Source: Dysgonamonadaceae bacterium
Lineage (GTDB): Bacteria; Bacteroidota; Bacteroidia; Bacteroidales; Azobacteroidaceae
Length of the DNA: 61,782 nt
Reading direction: 5' to 3'
NCBI GenBank assembly: GCA_031253625.1
Contig: JAIRVZ010000084.1
Span: 1 to 61,782 of the forward strand
The notes under the pieces were generated by a model. The model was given only the letters and a program-made list of their open reading frames with translations, did not search any database and was not told where the DNA came from. Position 1 is the first letter of the stretch. Each line of letters starts with the position of its first letter. The position numbers were made by a program, and so were the translations under genes. Positions 24,460 to 60,444 of this stretch are shown in pieces.

Positions 24460-27400
24460 ATGAAATTTATGAAAACAGTATTACGAATTACTGGGTATAA
24501 ATGCGTTAAGTATGCATTTTTATCCTTGTTTTTATTAATGGTAAGTTCTTCGCTTTTTGCTCAAACACGCTACTATTGGACAGGAAAGGCAGGAGACTAT
24601 AATTGGTCGACCATTGGAAACTGGTCATCTGTCAGTGGAGGTGAAACAGTTGAAGGTATTAGTCAAGCGCCATCGTCTATCAATACGGTAGTATTCGATG
24701 TCAATTCGGGATTGGGGGCGAGTAGTGCCCTAAGAACAATTAGTATCAGTGGTGCTGTCAATTGCGACAGCTTGATCGTAACAGCCGACTGCCCTAATGC
24801 ACCTAGATTTGATATGGGAAGTAATTCTTCCAACTATATTAACATAAACGGTTCATTGTTGTTAGAAAGAACGGGAGTATCATTCTATGGAGCAAATGGC
24901 AGTAGCCCAATTTTAAAATTTACCAGTGATCGTTCCAACGAGACTATCCAAACTAATGGAACACATATTGGTGGTAATTTTCAGTATAGTAGATATTTAA
25001 ATTACAGTGCCATGTTGTTTTCCGGTGTCGGTAGCTGGCGATTAATCAATGGACTTACCTGTTCCGGGTTACAAGTGCAAAATGGTACATTGAATTTAAA
25101 TGGTCACAATTTAACTACTATGAATGTCGTGGTTACGGGTGGAAAAATGGTATTTCCAAATGTAACTATAACTTGTACGGGTGATTGGACTTATACCGGA
25201 GGTGCTGCACTAACTTCTGCCGAAACCGGCGGTTCATTGATCCGTATGCACGGAGGTGTTTTTTCCGGAAGGAGTACGGATATTTATCACAATGTAGAAT
25301 TTTATGGAAATAGTTTTCCCCATTCTATTGATAAGGGCCAATTTGATGAAATTCTTTTTTCAGCAGGAAGAGGTCAAATAGGAACAACTGCTGCCGGTGA
25401 ATTGAAAACGAAAAATCTGATAATCAAGGCGAGCGATGAATATAATTTTCAGACGATAACTGTCAGTAGTAAGTTTGAGGCTATGCCTCCCGTATCATGT
25501 GGTGGACAAGTGTGGTTGCGTGGTTTAAATGCAACATCTGATGTTAGCCAACGCTCCATTACCTTGGGTGGCAGTGCTACAGTTAATGTAGAGCGAGCCG
25601 TGATTAACGACTTGGATATTACAGGCGGTACATCGCGTACTGCGGTCAATTCCCACAACTGGGGCAACAATAGCGGATGGACATTTACCGGAGCACCTGC
25701 GGCCGGACGCAATATGTATTGGATCGGTGGTGCCGGATCGTGGAACGACCCCGCCCATTGGTCAACATCTTCCGGTGGCACTTCTGTTGGTTGCATACCC
25801 ACATTGGCAGATGATGTATTTTTCAATGCAGGTTCAGGAACCATTGGCAATACGTTTGCTACCGGTATATGTATATATGGAACGGCATGGTGTAAAAATA
25901 TGACAATCAACGGAGTATCGGGTACTCCCAGACTTTATTCTTCTGGAGGGAGTAGCACAATAGAAGGTGATATTCTACATTCTTGTAGATTAGTAATCGG
26001 AGGCTCTTTGACACTTCAAGAAGGTATGGTTAGTTTTGGTGATGGTAATAGTAATATTAATTTTGTCAGTAACATCTCTAACAATGAAATTTGGTCCAAA
26101 GGTGTCAATATTACTGCGATTTTGAATTTTCACAGTATATCCGGAGCCGGAGGTTGGAAATTGATGGATGATGTAGGTGTTCTTAATGCTGCCAATGGTA
26201 ATGCTAATACCGGCCCTGCTTCTATTAACTTATACGCAGGTCATTTAGATCTTAGCGGAAGACAGGTGGTACTAAATGGCAATGGTCATTTCGATATTCT
26301 TCACGACAACTCTATCTCCGGCTTTTCCGGTCAATCTTCCTTGCGTACACTGAATATTGCCGGTTCGTTTATTGAGAGTGGTTTGTATTGGAGTAGTTTC
26401 GGAGGGCAGAAATTGACAGCAGCTCAATCGAGTTCATCGCTTATTATAAATAGATTCATGTTCCGTACAAAAAATGGTGACGAATATAATAATGTCGAAA
26501 TGATCCAATTTCGACAAGGTTGGACTAGTTCTCTTGCTGCTGGAGCAGCTGGAGACGGCAGTGGTATTACTTCCTTTAATAAGATCATTCTGTCCGGAAT
26601 GGAATCTCACATTTATGATGGTATGCACCCCGATTCTTTGATTCTCGCAGGGAATGGAACGTATTCCATTAACGTAGATATAACAATCAATAAATACTTA
26701 GCTTCTTCATTAGAATGTGGCGGACAAACACACCTAAAGTCTGTAGATCCGGCGCGGCCGATAACTATTACTATGGGCACCGCATTGTCGAAAAGCGAAC
26801 GTGTAAAGGTTCAAAATACAATAATAGAGAATGTCAGCATTACTCCTGATGGGCCTTATGATATAACCGACTGTACTTTAACAGGCACAAGCACCGGTTG
26901 GAAAAACACTAATGTTAATCCTGCCAAAACTTATTATTGGGTAGGAGGAACCGGAGATTGGGGTGATCCGAATCACTGGTCATTAATCAGAGGATCTCAT
27001 GATGGAAACACTTGCATACCGCGAGCAATCGACAATGTTGTTTTCGACAATAATTCGTTTGTTTATCCCGACACCTTAACCCTGAACATTTCTGCTTATT
27101 GCAACAATATGACTTGGGAAGGCGGTTCAACACAGAAGCCAAGATTTGACTTAGATGTTTATCGAATGTATATCGGAGGTTCTCTTGTGTTACAATCGGG
27201 AATGACGGTTAATTCCTCCTATTCTAATCCTTATGGTTTCTATTTTGCATCGAATCGCTTGACTGAAACTATCCGTACTAATGGAGTTACAGCTGGAGCA
27301 ATTTATAATTTTAATGGTACGGGAGGTTGGAAATTAGAGGACGCATTAAACACTAGCAATGACATTGTTTTTGAAAAAGGGACTTTGAATTTTAACGGTC

Positions 27401-30165
27401 AAAGAGTACAATTTTATCCTAGTGTCGGTGTCTTTAGAGAAGGCTCACCTGATAACCGTAACAATCGGAATTTACGCATAGAAGGTGCAAAGATCACTGC
27501 AAATGGATGGAGTTATACCGGCAATTTACAGGCAGAAGGTTCTGAAATCTATATTGGTAGCACCAGTAGTGGTCAGTCTTTCACTGCCGAAACAGGTGCC
27601 CGTTATCACAACCTGACCCTGACTACCGGTTCCAGTTACAATATTAAACCTGTTAATGGTGGTATTTACAATAAGATAACAGCACTTCAATCTAGCATCT
27701 TCAACGGTATCGAAACCGATACGCTGCAGTTAGCTAATAATAGTAACTACGAGTATCAATTTACATCAGGCAGTACTACTACTGTCAAGGAAGCTTTCTA
27801 TGGTAGCGGAACGCCATGTAACAATGGTGTTATTTTGCGCTCAACAGAGGAAACAGAGCCTGCAATCTTTGACATCAAGCGCAAAGCAGCTAATGATAAC
27901 GATAATGTCCTTGTAATTAACTATGCTCGTATACATGGTATCAAAGCACTCACTAATTCGGATAATGCCCGCCTTCACAAGGAAAGATATTGTGCCGACG
28001 AAAATAAGGGTGGCTCTGCCCCTGCTTCATGGGGTTACGGTAAGGGTACCGGTAACTACAATGAAGGCTGGTTGCCGATGGCTAATTATGTACAGGAAGA
28101 ACCCAGACCATTCAATGGAGACAGATTCTTACCGTGCGATAAATTCCCCTACACGCTTACCTCAGCCAACTTCGCACCGACACCGGAAACTACTTTTAAA
28201 TGGAGGATTGGGAAAGCTACGAACCCTGTAGTCAGCACAGAGGCTAACTTGATTATTGACGGTCCGGAAACATATTTCCTTACTGTTGATTATGGAAACA
28301 AATGTGAATCTTCCGATCATTTAACAATAACCACCGGAGAAGGTGACTCATTAGTATGGACAGGTGCTGTCGGAAATAGAGACTGGAATGATCCTGCTAA
28401 CTGGTATCATCCCGGAACAAGTGCTGTTTCTACCTTTGCTCCTGACAAATGCATAGACGTGCTAATACCTGCCGGAAAAGGTAATTATCCTGATTTGACT
28501 CCTTTTAACGGCACTTTCGGTACCGACTATACACAAGAGTTTTATGAAACAGCAGCTTGTAATCATATTTGGTTTGAACATGGCGGTGAAGTCGTCCGTA
28601 CAGATTCTTTGGATTACAATAGAGCCTTTGTCGAATTAACTCTTGCAGCCAACCGTTGGAATATGATTTCCGCACCGTTACGTTATATGTATACGGGTGA
28701 CTATTACAAAAACGATCCATGTCCTCACGCAGATAAATTGCGCATTTATCAACAACTTTTTGAAACGGCAAATCCGCAACCTGATGTAGCAGAGGAAACA
28801 ATTCAAAATGCTACAGGTGGTTGGACAGGCGCATTCAATAATCCTGAAGTAGAAATACCTGTCGGTTTCGGTTATGCCGTACACTTGCTTGATGACGGTA
28901 CAGCTTTTAATGAAGATTTTGTTAAAATTCCGGTTGCCAACGAAACAGACTGGGTTGCAGCAACAGGTCGTCACTCTATTTGGTTCCCTAAAAATGATAA
29001 GAGTTATAATGTTTACTGGCTTACAAGTGTAAACGGAGATCAAAAACCTCCAATTAATGCTTCTTGTGAGAATGAAGACATTAAAAGCACTCATTCTATA
29101 TATAGAGGCACCGGTTTGAATAATGATAACAACTACCGCTTTGTTTACGAAGCCGAAAGCACTTGGAAAACCTCAGGTAATGTCACGCTCACCACAACCG
29201 GAGCATCTGCTGCAGGTAAGCAAGTGATTGTAGGTAATCCGTTTATGTCACACTGGGATTTCAGCAACTTTGCTGCACAAAATCCGGGCAAAATCAAAGA
29301 TGAATACAAAGTATTAGAAAGCAAAGATGATGCTGCTTATACTACTTATTCTTCTTTAACAGCCACCAATAAACTGATAGCTCCTATGCAATCTGTATTG
29401 ATTACCTCAACTGCCAACATTGGAACAACAGAATTGAAAACCAATTTTAAGGCCATGGCAGAAAAGCCGGGCGATAAATTGAAAAGCGCAAGCAATACAG
29501 AATCGAGCTTGTTGAAAATTGTAGTCGAGAAAGAAGATAAAAGCAACAGTACGCATATTATGTTTGATGCAATGGCCGATAACAGCTACGATTTGAATAA
29601 AGACAGCTACAAACTGTTTGTTGATGAAGTCACCAAGCCGGTTGCAGTCTACACCCGTTCACAAGATGGTATTGCTCTTGACATCAATGTATTTGGTGAC
29701 ACCAAAGAAATGATTCCGTTGGGAGTTCGTACTTCTACCACAGGAACAATCAACTTGCGATTTGAAGGAGTCGACAACTTCTACAAACTGTACTTGATTG
29801 ATGCTCTACATCCTAATAGCCCTATTGACCTGAAAGAAACACCTGAATACAGTTTCGATAAAACAACATCAGGCTTGTTCATGGACGGAAGACTTTTCCT
29901 GTCAGTGGAGAATGCACCTAACAGTGACTTATTCCCGACACAAGGCGCAGTTTCTGTATTCACTTCAGGAAAACAATTACAAGTGGTTTCCAACAGCAAC
30001 ATCGACGAAGTTCAAGTATTTGATATGCAAGGAAGAATGTTACACCAAGCACGCAATATCGACACATCGACATATACCTGCAACTTATCAAACAGTGGTA
30101 TGTATGTTGTAAAAGTATTGACCGGAAAAGATGTAACAATAAAGAAAGTAACAATAGATAAGTAA
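24460..30165 (+). CDS. Giant modular surface protein with T9SS type A sorting tail
   Basis: Exported protein of 1901 residues. After a signal peptide (ending LFAQ) the protein shows repeated modules opening with YYWTGxxGDWxxxxNWS: at about residues 37, 418, 824 and 1298. The first three are about 400 residues each and also share C-x-P-x-x-D-x-VVFD, GSLxLQxGM and GGWKL motifs, suggesting beta-helix-like repeats. From about 1298 onward the protein is closely similar to the protein encoded at 56868-60275. The last 80 residues (VQVFDMQGRML, SGMYVVKVLTG, IKKVTIDK) form a T9SS type A sorting domain, so it is probably carried across the outer membrane and anchored or released at the cell surface. 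Function is unknown. A start at 24469 is also possible. It is followed by a REP-like palindrome and the 42-codon ORF. Confidence 0.9.
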   Translation: MKFMKTVLRITGYKCVKYAFLSLFLLMVSSSLFAQTRYYWTGKAGDYNWSTIGNWSSVSGGETVEGISQAPSSINTVVFDVNSGLGASSALRTISISGAVNCDSLIVTADCPNAPRFDMGSNSSNYININGSLLLERTGVSFYGANGSSPILKFTSDRSNETIQTNGTHIGGNFQYSRYLNYSAMLFSGVGSWRLINGLTCSGLQVQNGTLNLNGHNLTTMNVVVTGGKMVFPNVTITCTGDWTYTGGAALTSAETGGSLIRMHGGVFSGRSTDIYHNVEFYGNSFPHSIDKGQFDEILFSAGRGQIGTTAAGELKTKNLIIKASDEYNFQTITVSSKFEAMPPVSCGGQVWLRGLNATSDVSQRSITLGGSATVNVERAVINDLDITGGTSRTAVNSHNWGNNSGWTFTGAPAAGRNMYWIGGAGSWNDPAHWSTSSGGTSVGCIPTLADDVFFNAGSGTIGNTFATGICIYGTAWCKNMTINGVSGTPRLYSSGGSSTIEGDILHSCRLVIGGSLTLQEGMVSFGDGNSNINFVSNISNNEIWSKGVNITAILNFHSISGAGGWKLMDDVGVLNAANGNANTGPASINLYAGHLDLSGRQVVLNGNGHFDILHDNSISGFSGQSSLRTLNIAGSFIESGLYWSSFGGQKLTAAQSSSSLIINRFMFRTKNGDEYNNVEMIQFRQGWTSSLAAGAAGDGSGITSFNKIILSGMESHIYDGMHPDSLILAGNGTYSINVDITINKYLASSLECGGQTHLKSVDPARPITITMGTALSKSERVKVQNTIIENVSITPDGPYDITDCTLTGTSTGWKNTNVNPAKTYYWVGGTGDWGDPNHWSLIRGSHDGNTCIPRAIDNVVFDNNSFVYPDTLTLNISAYCNNMTWEGGSTQKPRFDLDVYRMYIGGSLVLQSGMTVNSSYSNPYGFYFASNRLTETIRTNGVTAGAIYNFNGTGGWKLEDALNTSNDIVFEKGTLNFNGQRVQFYPSVGVFREGSPDNRNNRNLRIEGAKITANGWSYTGNLQAEGSEIYIGSTSSGQSFTAETGARYHNLTLTTGSSYNIKPVNGGIYNKITALQSSIFNGIETDTLQLANNSNYEYQFTSGSTTTVKEAFYGSGTPCNNGVILRSTEETEPAIFDIKRKAANDNDNVLVINYARIHGIKALTNSDNARLHKERYCADENKGGSAPASWGYGKGTGNYNEGWLPMANYVQEEPRPFNGDRFLPCDKFPYTLTSANFAPTPETTFKWRIGKATNPVVSTEANLIIDGPETYFLTVDYGNKCESSDHLTITTGEGDSLVWTGAVGNRDWNDPANWYHPGTSAVSTFAPDKCIDVLIPAGKGNYPDLTPFNGTFGTDYTQEFYETAACNHIWFEHGGEVVRTDSLDYNRAFVELTLAANRWNMISAPLRYMYTGDYYKNDPCPHADKLRIYQQLFETANPQPDVAEETIQNATGGWTGAFNNPEVEIPVGFGYAVHLLDDGTAFNEDFVKIPVANETDWVAATGRHSIWFPKNDKSYNVYWLTSVNGDQKPPINASCENEDIKSTHSIYRGTGLNNDNNYRFVYEAESTWKTSGNVTLTTTGASAAGKQVIVGNPFMSHWDFSNFAAQNPGKIKDEYKVLESKDDAAYTTYSSLTATNKLIAPMQSVLITSTANIGTTELKTNFKAMAEKPGDKLKSASNTESSLLKIVVEKEDKSNSTHIMFDAMADNSYDLNKDSYKLFVDEVTKPVAVYTRSQDGIALDINVFGDTKEMIPLGVRTSTTGTINLRFEGVDNFYKLYLIDALHPNSPIDLKETPEYSFDKTTSGLFMDGRLFLSVENAPNSDLFPTQGAVSVFTSGKQLQVVSNSNIDEVQVFDMQGRMLHQARNIDTSTYTCNLSNSGMYVVKVLTGKDVTIKKVTIDK

Positions 30166-30180
30166 TCAACGGGTTTATCA

Positions 30181-30240
30181 CTGCGTTCGAAATGACGGTG
30201 CAACAAAGCATGACCAAAGAGCTCGTCATTTCGAACGCAG
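30181..30240. repeat. REP-like perfect 17-bp palindrome
   Basis: CTGCGTTCGAAATGACG (30181-30197) is exactly inverted at 30224-30240, with a 26-base loop. There is no T-run, so terminator function is doubtful. The arm resembles the CATTTCGAACGCAG-type intergenic repeats of Bacteroidetes. It sits between the giant gene and the 42-codon ORF, in a spacer that lacks it in the second cassette. Confidence 0.8.
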
Positions 30241-30276
30241 CGAGAAAACTAACGAACATTAAACAAAAATAAAGCA

Positions 30277-30405
30277 ATGAAAGAAACAAGAGAAATATAC
30301 GATGCTCCAATAGTGGAAACCGTAGAAGTGATGGTTGAACAGGGATTTCAAATGTCAGCCCCATCAAAGAGCAATCCTGATCCGCTTAAAGAAAAGATAA
30401 GATAA
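30277..30405 (+). CDS. 42-aa conserved peptide, copy 1
   Basis: Short ORF beginning MKETREIYDAP and ending DPLKEKIR. A second copy at 60316-60444 follows the paralogous T9SS gene. The two peptides are identical at 40 of 42 positions (Ile12-Val13 against Val12-Ile13), while 11 further codons differ synonymously, strong evidence that it is translated and under selection. There is no signal peptide, no membrane helix and no Cys. The layout (charged N-terminus, Y-x-A-P, then VEQGF and a Ser/Pro-rich end) recalls other short Bacteroidales ORFs seen near surface-protein genes, from memory only. Role is unknown: a co-secreted or signalling peptide, a chaperone-like partner or a peptide precursor are all possible. 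Confidence 0.8.
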   Translation: MKETREIYDAPIVETVEVMVEQGFQMSAPSKSNPDPLKEKIR

Positions 30406-56729: not shown

Positions 56730-56867
56730 CAACGAAATGTCTGCAAGAAGAATTGCGTGACACACACGTACCATGTAATAAAAAAGTATTTTAAGCACAC
56801 AAAGTACAGTATAAAAAAAATTGAATCACACATTACTAAATTACTAATCGAATTTAAGTTTACAGTT

Positions 56868-59800
56868 ATGGATAAGAATCTGAAGTTTTTAAAACGATTT
56901 TTCGTTGGAGGTTTCCTTTTATTGTCATTAGGAATCCTTAATGGACACGCGCAAGGTTGTACGATTGATGATGATAGCTATTACACAATGGATCCTGCCG
57001 GATTCAGCCAGCTTTGTTCAGGCGGAACAGCGGCTTGGCAATGTGGTGACTGGGGGAGTGATAATCGCTATCTTGAAGCCTCAAGTTTGGCAGACATCCC
57101 TTCCGGACTTATAAGTGCCGGAACGATACAATTTGCAGTAAACACTCCGGGAAAACGACACATAGTCTATACAGGTACCGATCCTCTAACGATTAAGTTT
57201 TTGGGATCAGGTAGCATATATTTTAAATCTACTGTTGCCCCTGTAACGATAACCGGCACCTTGGATGGCATTGGTCGCTTGATCTTAGACGGTCCGGTTA
57301 CTTATACCTATACTACCGAGATTAAAGGTAATTTAGCGATATGTGAAAACACAAAAGTAATATATAATGGGCCTATTGCTGTTCATGACGGATGCTTTAG
57401 TACTGACGTGGGTATGAATATCTACAATAGAGGGATATTTACCGTCAATGGAGGATTTAGATTTAACGGTTCTAATTTTTTCAACAATGGGGAAATGCTT
57501 ATAATAGGGGATTTTTACCCATCAAACCAAAAAACGGCTCTTTTTGTGAATAATGGAAGAATTAGGGTAACTAAAGACTTAATGATCACATCAGGAACGA
57601 TTTGTCTTGCTAATGGTTGTTTTGATGTGGATAAAAATATTTGGAATCCTAATAATCCGTTGGAATTTGTCGGTATAATGGGAGATGGAGGAGGCATTCA
57701 CTTTGAAGGTAATTATATCTTTGGAAATGGTTCATTTTCGGTTCCTCTTGTACAATCGGGACAAAATGTATCTATCACAGCCGGTGCGAACTCGCTCGCT
57801 CAATGGGTAAATGCTTCCGGAGTAACGTTTCCTTTTGAGGGATTACCGGATTTTAATGGTTCTTATTGGAATCTCAATTGGACTCAATTGTTGGGTTGGG
57901 GTACTTTCCTAACGAGAGGTGATGCTTGTGGTGATTATACCGGTAATGTAACTTTCAGCGCTCCCGATCAAGAGGCTTGTGAAGGTGATAATGTTTCCGT
58001 TAACGTTTTTCCTCAAGATGATGTTTATGAGTATCAATGGTTTAAGAGTAATGGCGCAGGAGGATGGACTTCCATTGGAAGTCGTAGTTCAAGCGGTTAT
58101 ATCAACGTTATAAAAAGCAGTGCCGGATTAGATGTATACTATGTAGATGTTTACGATGTAAATCTTGTAGCTCCGGTAAAGACAAAACATCCGGTAAATC
58201 TTTATTTAGCAGCCGCAGGAGAATGTAATTCTTTCGTTTTCACTGCTCCCGATGTGATGGCTTGTGAAGGAGATAATGTCAGACTCAATATTTTCCCTCA
58301 AGAGCCAACTTTGTCGTATGAATGGTTCAAGAGCAATGGAGCAGGAGGATGGATTTCACAGGGAGTTCATGCTAACGGTTATTTTGATGTTATAAAAGGA
58401 TCAGGATCATTAGACTCATACGCTGTTGATGTTAGAGAATCATCAACTCTGATAGAAGGAAAATTTCCGGTAAATCTTTATTTAACAGCCGATACTTTGG
58501 TTTGGACAGGAAGTGCCGGTAATAAAGATTGGAATGATGCTGCCAACTGGAACTATCCGGGCACAGGTTCTTTATCCGGTAAACCGGAATTATGGATTCC
58601 TCGTCCTTGTACCAATGTGTTAATCCCTGCCGGTAAAGGAAATTATCCTGATTTGAGTGTCACAAGCACAACTATTTATAGCGATGCAGCTTGTAACAAG
58701 ATTTGGTTTAGGCATGGTGGCGAAGTTGTTCGCACCGACTTGTTGAACTATAAAAAAGCAAACTTGGAATTAACGCTCGAGGCCAACCGTTGGAATATGA
58801 TTACTGTACCTTTGCGGTATGTGCATACTGGTGACTTTTACAAAAATGATCCGTGTCCTCATGCAGATAAATTGCGCATTTATCAACAACTTTTTGAAAC
58901 GGCAAATCCGCAACCCGACGCAACAGTTAATCCTACAGGTGGCTGGACAGGGCCTTTCAACAATCCTGAAATAGCTATACCTGCCGGTTTCGGTTATGCC
59001 GTACACTTGCTTGATGACGGTACAGCTTTTGATGAAGATTTTGTTAAAATGCCGGTTGCCAACGAAACAGACTGGGTTCCTGCAACAGGTCGCCACTCTA
59101 TTTGGTTCCCTAAAAATGATAAGAGTTATAATGTTTACTGGCTTACAAGTGTAAACGGAGATCAAAAACCTCCAATCAATGCTTCCTGTGAGAATGAAGA
59201 CATTAAATCTACTCATACTATAGAAAGAGGAAGTGGTTTTGATAACTACCGCTTTGTTTATGAAGCCGGAAGTACTTGGAATACTACAGGTGACATCACG
59301 CTTACTACAAGCAGTGCTTCTGCAGCAGAAAAGGCAGTGATTGTAGGTAACCCATTCATGTCTCACTGGGATTTCGATAAATTCGCTGCACGAAATACAG
59401 GTAAATTCAAAGATGAATATAAAGTATTAGAAAGTGGCAATGATGCTGTTTATGTTACTTATTCTTCTTTAATTTCTTCCAACAAACTGATAGCACCTAT
59501 GCAGTCGATATTGATTACCTCAAATGCTGTTTTTGGAACAACAGGTTTGAAAACCAATGTTGAAGACATGGCTCAAAAACCGGGTAATGTCTTAAAAAGT
59601 GCAAGCAATACAGAATCGAACTTATTGAAAATCGTTGCCGAGAAAGACGACACAAGCAACCAGACACATATTTTGTTCGATGTTTCAGCCAACAACAACT
59701 ACGTGTTTGAGGAAGATAGCTACAAATTGTTCGTAACCGATGTAACCGGGCCTATTGCAGTTTATACTCGCTCTTCGGATGGTGTTGCACTCGATATCAA

Positions 59801-60275
59801 CGTTTTTGGTGACACTGATCAACTGATTCCGCTTGGTGTGCGTACTTCTCAAACGGGAAATATTGACCTGCGATTTGAAGGTGTCGAAAACTTTGGAAAG
59901 TTGCAATTGATTGATACTCTATACCCTAATGATGCTATCGACCTGAAAGAAACGCCCGAATATAGTTTCAAGAAAACAACATCAGACTTGTTCTTGGATG
60001 GAAGATTCTTCCTGTCATTCAAAAAGGCTCCTAACAGCGACCTCATTCCGACACAAGGAGCGGTTTCTATCTTCACTTCAGGTAATCAATTACAAGTGAT
60101 TTCGGATAGTGCCATAGATGCAGTTCAAATATTCGATATGCAAGGAAGATTGTTAAAGAAGGCAACTAATGTTAGAAATTCATGTATTCTTGATTTGCCA
60201 CAAAGTGGTGTATATATTGTGAAAGTTTTAACAAAAGAGAGTTCGATTGTTGAAAAAGTAATGGCAAGTAAATAA
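56868..60275 (+). CDS. Modular surface protein with T9SS type A sorting tail (cassette 2)
   Basis: Exported protein of 1135 residues, signal peptide ending at GHAQ. A beta-rich N-terminal region (about 30-350) is followed by two tandem Ig-like repeats of about 95 residues (starting about 362 and 457; shared EACEGDNV/MACEGDNV and WFKSNGAGGW). One LVWTGSAGNKDWND module comes at about 543, and the remainder is closely similar to the C-terminal half of the protein at 24460-30165. The end (VQIFDMQGRLL, SGVYIVKVLT) is a T9SS sorting domain. Start 56868 is chosen since the frame from 56757 adds 37 residues lacking signal character. Function unknown; the 42-codon ORF lies 40 bases downstream. Confidence 0.9.
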   Translation: MDKNLKFLKRFFVGGFLLLSLGILNGHAQGCTIDDDSYYTMDPAGFSQLCSGGTAAWQCGDWGSDNRYLEASSLADIPSGLISAGTIQFAVNTPGKRHIVYTGTDPLTIKFLGSGSIYFKSTVAPVTITGTLDGIGRLILDGPVTYTYTTEIKGNLAICENTKVIYNGPIAVHDGCFSTDVGMNIYNRGIFTVNGGFRFNGSNFFNNGEMLIIGDFYPSNQKTALFVNNGRIRVTKDLMITSGTICLANGCFDVDKNIWNPNNPLEFVGIMGDGGGIHFEGNYIFGNGSFSVPLVQSGQNVSITAGANSLAQWVNASGVTFPFEGLPDFNGSYWNLNWTQLLGWGTFLTRGDACGDYTGNVTFSAPDQEACEGDNVSVNVFPQDDVYEYQWFKSNGAGGWTSIGSRSSSGYINVIKSSAGLDVYYVDVYDVNLVAPVKTKHPVNLYLAAAGECNSFVFTAPDVMACEGDNVRLNIFPQEPTLSYEWFKSNGAGGWISQGVHANGYFDVIKGSGSLDSYAVDVRESSTLIEGKFPVNLYLTADTLVWTGSAGNKDWNDAANWNYPGTGSLSGKPELWIPRPCTNVLIPAGKGNYPDLSVTSTTIYSDAACNKIWFRHGGEVVRTDLLNYKKANLELTLEANRWNMITVPLRYVHTGDFYKNDPCPHADKLRIYQQLFETANPQPDATVNPTGGWTGPFNNPEIAIPAGFGYAVHLLDDGTAFDEDFVKMPVANETDWVPATGRHSIWFPKNDKSYNVYWLTSVNGDQKPPINASCENEDIKSTHTIERGSGFDNYRFVYEAGSTWNTTGDITLTTSSASAAEKAVIVGNPFMSHWDFDKFAARNTGKFKDEYKVLESGNDAVYVTYSSLISSNKLIAPMQSILITSNAVFGTTGLKTNVEDMAQKPGNVLKSASNTESNLLKIVAEKDDTSNQTHILFDVSANNNYVFEEDSYKLFVTDVTGPIAVYTRSSDGVALDINVFGDTDQLIPLGVRTSQTGNIDLRFEGVENFGKLQLIDTLYPNDAIDLKETPEYSFKKTTSDLFLDGRFFLSFKKAPNSDLIPTQGAVSIFTSGNQLQVISDSAIDAVQIFDMQGRLLKKATNVRNSCILDLPQSGVYIVKVLTKESSIVEKVMASK

Positions 60276-60315: not shown

Positions 60316-60444
60316 ATGAAAGAAACAAGAGAAATTTATGACGCTCCGGTTATAGAAACCGTTGAAGTGATGGTTGAGCAAGGATTTCAAATGTCTGCAC
60401 CATCAAAGAGTAATCCTGATCCGCTTAAAGAAAAAATAAGATAA
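60316..60444 (+). CDS. 42-aa conserved peptide, copy 2
   Basis: Second copy of the peptide at 30277-30405: same length, 40 of 42 residues identical, with 11 synonymous codon differences. The spacer from the T9SS gene is 40 bases here, without the palindrome found in copy 1, but keeps the shared AAACTAACGAA and ATAAAGCAATG elements. A strong terminator follows 22 bases after the stop, so the T9SS gene and this ORF form a closed two-gene unit. Confidence 0.8.
   Translation: MKETREIYDAPVIETVEVMVEQGFQMSAPSKSNPDPLKEKIR

Follow-up and report, generated by a model that had tools for sequence, protein, structure and literature searches.

Precursors of lasso peptides carry a YxxPxL leader motif that has been reported to be required for recognition by the B1 protein (PMC10368454, PMC6784204); in BsfA, alanine changes of the Y, P and L left phosphorylation unblocked and only the triple change lowered cleavage. 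The kinase-bearing lasso clusters, namely those of paeninodin (PadeK), pseudomycoidin (PsmK/PsmN) and BsfA (BsfB1, BsfK and BsfN), have in common with the Bacteroidales system described here a YxxPxL-type leader, a discrete PqqD-like RRE, an HprK-like kinase with the same catalytic residues, a nucleotidyltransferase and an ABC exporter. Unlike these clusters, however, the present system has no PF13471 B2 protease, no cyclase was seen beside its cassettes, and it contains an S26-like protease instead and several dispersed precursors located beside surface protein genes. A PqqD-family protein is also used by the HprK_rel_A system (TIGR04352, with PqqD_rel_X), to which the present kinase showed a weak match (E 3e-5; 23 of 200 bits, far under the curated cut-off). 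Small leader-bearing precursors from the same order are likewise found among the Bacteroidales RiPPs with GG leaders and PCAT exporters (PMC10352776), but the present peptide differs from these in its E-x-G-F motif and its separate S26-like protease and ABC gene. A term search of that paper found no passages on a nucleotidyltransferase or an HPr-type cassette.

The component parts are known, and no published description of the combination of peptide and cassette was found in the literature searched, which was without most subscription journals and preprints. The criterion for rule-based lasso mining quoted in PMC13289728 is PF13471 plus Asn synthetase, and this suggests that mining that needs both would miss the present system.

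The window (the whole stretch of 61,782 nucleotides analysed, from a Dysgonamonadaceae bacterium) contained both of the 42-aa ORFs reported by the first-pass annotation. With moderate confidence, we read them as precursors of a lasso-like, probably non-cyclised, phosphorylated and exported RiPP, of which several would be served by one dispersed enzyme set. The features of the window are as follows:

24460..30165, plus strand: 1901-aa protein ending in a T9SS sorting domain and lying 111 nt ahead of copy 1 (domain match)
30174..30247, no strand assigned: inverted repeat (arms TCATTTCGAACGCAG) within the copy 1 spacer; the spacer of copy 2 lacks it
30277..30405, plus strand: peptide gene copy 1, 42 aa (ORF, codon comparison, homologues)
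56757..60275, plus strand: T9SS-sorted protein, 40 nt upstream of copy 2 (domain match)
60316..60444, plus strand: peptide gene copy 2, 42 aa (ORF, codon comparison)

The copy 1 peptide is MKETREIYDAPIVETVEVMVEQGFQMSAPSKSNPDPLKEKIR, and that of copy 2 is identical except for VI replacing IV. Pairwise alignment revealed 40 of 42 residues to be shared and 15 nucleotide changes across 13 codons, of which, as annotated earlier, 11 were synonymous and two exchanged Ile and Val; over codon positions 1, 2 and 3, the changes were distributed 2/0/13. None of 20,000 simulated random placements of 15 changes was as low in non-synonymous codons or as high in third-position changes, and NG86 estimates for the pair were dN 0.025 and dS 0.80 (dN/dS about 0.03). 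The dN/dS ratio, the third-position excess and the random-placement test thus bore out the earlier claim of codon-level purifying selection on the peptide, and the same pattern ruled out conservation of a non-coding element. A third near-identical copy (G000:C119:29662-29787) showed 8 nucleotide changes, 7 of them at position 3. The C-terminal 480 aa of the neighbouring T9SS proteins yielded dN 0.168 and dS 0.66 (dN 0.33 over the last 75 aa), corresponding to a protein divergence about 7-fold above that of the peptide; because the neighbour's dN was higher at similar dS, selection is stronger on the peptide. On this sequence evidence, the 42-residue peptide is a real and strongly conserved gene product. 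Its description as too short for standard gene calling was overstated, since the ORF of 129 nt exceeds the 90-nt minimum of Prodigal.

Across 393 genomes, the peptide was found in 15, the kinase in 33 and both in 12 (10/12 genera). The kinase was thereby present in 12/15 peptide-bearing versus 21/378 other genomes (Fisher p=6e-12, which overstates independence as the genomes are related); it was missing from three peptide-bearing genomes, and 21 kinase-bearing genomes were without a peptide match. At six loci (G000 C45, G015, G025, G029, G032 and G055), the peptide gene was located directly upstream of an HprK-like gene, and the relatives' cassettes comprised, with varying completeness, an HprK-like kinase, an S24/S26-like protease, PqqD, NTP_transf_5 and an ABC exporter. 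These cassette-linked homologues occurred in the same family and in G055 (taken as Dysgonomonas sp. 511), usually behind a T9SS protein, whereas order-wide the peptide gene was mostly separated by 5-50 nt from a downstream lipoprotein gene, in some cases one with BspA-type LRRs. The partner common across lineages is a predicted HprK-like/S26-like/PqqD/NTP_transf_5/ABC cassette of RiPP type, outside of which the window copies themselves are located. Throughout gut Bacteroidales, the peptide is found next to giant surface proteins. These findings tie a RiPP-like enzyme set to small ORFs that neighbour T9SS proteins and other proteins of the cell surface. Genomes had one kinase match each versus up to 11 precursors; G044, with 11 peptides, one kinase and no T9SS domain, would be a good model for a single enzyme set serving many precursors. 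In several Alistipes loci (L074 7794-8660 and neighbours), kinase and S26-like genes adjoined an ABC-type gene, and PqqD and NTP_transf_5 were not detected nearby, which could mean that this lineage has a split cassette.

Alignment of 27 family members revealed Y8, P11, E21 and G23 to be invariant (27/27) and F24, A25 and S27 to be near-invariant, with Q at position 25 in the window copies, while residues from 28 onward were variable. A scripted search found Y..P.[VILM] in 26/27 members, its last position being mostly V or I and not L, and a Y-to-G spacing of 15 in 26/27. The peptide therefore bears the lasso leader motif YxxPx[VIL], which is short, followed by E-x-G-F-[AQ]-x-S and a tail that varies, dividing the window copies as follows:

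30298..30345, plus strand: copy 1 conserved leader-like segment from Y8 to G23, YxxPx[VIL] ... E-x-G (alignment of 27)
30346..30402, plus strand: copy 1 proposed core, F24-[AQ]-x-S27 and variable tail (conservation profile)
60337..60384, plus strand: copy 2 conserved leader-like segment from Y8 to G23 (alignment)
60385..60441, plus strand: copy 2 proposed core (conservation profile)

If cut after G23, a site suggested by the conservation profile, copy 1 would release FQMSAPSKSNPDPLKEKIR as its mature product. A conserved leader, a variable core and nearby modifying and export genes are general features of RiPP precursors, and the peptide family shows them, with the window copies lying away from the cassette. 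The leader motif is not in itself proof of kinase use, because the BsfA alanine changes did not block phosphorylation. A profile of the peptide had no meaningful match in the PDB, and no signal peptide was evident in its sequence. The peptide as T9SS cargo was rejected: searching the window peptides against Pfam and NCBIfam returned no family, and hence no T9SS C-terminal domain, which only the neighbouring proteins matched. For this family without a Pfam or NCBIfam match, the cassette offers a testable function.

Among the cassette proteins, PqqD gave no match in the PDB with a profile of four sequences, but with one of 28 sequences its best matches were TfuB1 (E 7e-7) and TbiB1. Its predicted fold was also closest to TbiB1 and TfuB1, which were crystallised in complex with leader peptide, and the cassette PqqD is thus a predicted lasso B1-like RRE. 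The kinase profile matched only P-loop proteins in the PDB by sequence, whereas a fold search with the predicted structure returned the HprK/PEPCK fold; its residues H131, G146, G149, G151, K152, S153, D171 and D172, invariant in 44 sequences, are the catalytic set reported for lasso-peptide kinases. In the S26-like protease, SMxP, HR and GDG were invariant, as in archaeal-type signal peptidase I, with TIGR02228 scoring below its cut-off. In L121 and L135, the HprK-like domain was situated inside ORFs of 725-726 aa, possibly as a fusion with another cassette protein.

The host genome (G000) holds five peptide copies, namely the two of the window (30277 and 60316) and those on C119, C45 and C93. 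On C45, the peptide gene precedes an HprK-like gene and then an S26-like protease gene, an HprK profile search gave one match in this genome, and its PqqD and NTP_transf_5 genes, one each, lie together on C101. From this gene set and the cassettes of relatives, we infer a pathway in which the leader (Y8xxP11xV13) and the strand that follows would bind the PqqD-type RRE, after which the HprK-like kinase would phosphorylate the peptide, for which Ser27 (near-invariant) or a Ser in the tail is the candidate site. A further group may be attached to this phosphate by the NTP_transf_5 protein, in the way suggested for pseudomycoidin PsmN; the Ser-His signal-peptidase-like protease would cut near E-x-G|F, and an ABC exporter would secrete the tail. 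In the host, the single HprK and S26-like proteins (C45, beside one precursor) and the single PqqD and NTP_transf_5 proteins (C101) would act in trans on all five precursors, both window precursors included. Because the precursor usually lies beside a large surface protein (T9SS-sorted in the host, a lipoprotein elsewhere), the likely role of the product is to act together with that protein at the cell surface or to report its expression. More tentatively, and at somewhat short of even chances, these loci might represent a widespread, undescribed Bacteroidales RiPP class, its products being linear peptides that carry phospho- (perhaps glyco-) groups and depend on lasso-type enzymes for recognition and tailoring, with no cyclase, many surface-protein-paired precursors and one enzyme set acting in trans.

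The linkage to kinase and RRE, together with the tight linkage to large surface protein genes, would also suit a phosphopeptide that stays inside the cell as a kinase/RRE substrate and regulates the neighbouring surface protein. We consider this unlikely, as the cassettes contain S26-like protease and ABC exporter genes.

Slightly less likely still is a peptide dedicated to the T9SS-sorted protein next to it, whether as chaperone, signal or modifier. Both window peptide ORFs do come after a T9SS-sorted gene (TIGR04183, Por_Secre_tail, at 31.9 and 35 bits; cut-off 23), as had been annotated; the 56757..60275 protein (1172 aa if translated from GTG and 1135 aa if from ATG, the likely start) is 70% identical to the 24460-30165 protein over the last ~610 aa. 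In the host, 4/5 copies directly followed one of about 57 T9SS C-terminal domains genome-wide, with a chance probability of about 1e-6 that assumes independent copies, although at least three arose by module duplication. Several copies in relatives were also located behind such domains. The C119 copy follows a T9SS domain close to that of copy 1, and the similar dS of peptide (0.28) and domain (0.35) fits duplication of the T9SS C-terminus and peptide as a single unit. The linkage to T9SS proteins described by the first-pass annotation is thus real in the host, but elsewhere in the order homologues mostly precede lipoprotein genes, G044 carries its 11 peptides without T9SS domains, and the peptide lacks an evident signal peptide. 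Of the options raised earlier, a modifier or secreted peptide stays in line with our RiPP precursor reading, while a dedicated T9SS partnership is unsupported. The sole host copy without a T9SS neighbour, on C93 (G000:C93:55801-55878; L020:9738-9932), has an intact leader and a different tail and overlaps a convergent gene at that gene's 3′ end; it could be an orphan or in decay.

That the product is a true lasso peptide, cyclised by an unlinked B2 protease and C cyclase, would accord with the leader motif, B1-like RRE, HprK-like kinase and NTP_transf_5, which match lasso tailoring clusters, but is very improbable. PF13471 was not found in the host and exceeded its cut-off in 1/29 genomes, no cyclase-like family recurred among the genes neighbouring the kinase loci examined, and core positions 7-9, as numbered from the assumed cut site, had no conserved acidic residue.

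Least probable of all is a cis-acting upstream ORF or attenuator of which the translation rather than the peptide matters, since the short gap to a downstream lipoprotein gene at many loci is outweighed by purifying selection at the amino-acid level and by the window peptides coming after their partners, with unrelated genes next. The latter we take to be ribosomal L25-like and S46-peptidase-like genes. Ahead of the peptides, the two spacers share AAACTAACGAAYA and ATAAAGCA, immediately before the ATG, in agreement with the shared elements annotated earlier. The copy 1 spacer is longer because of the inverted repeat at 30174..30247, which resembles a repetitive element or a terminator-like hairpin.
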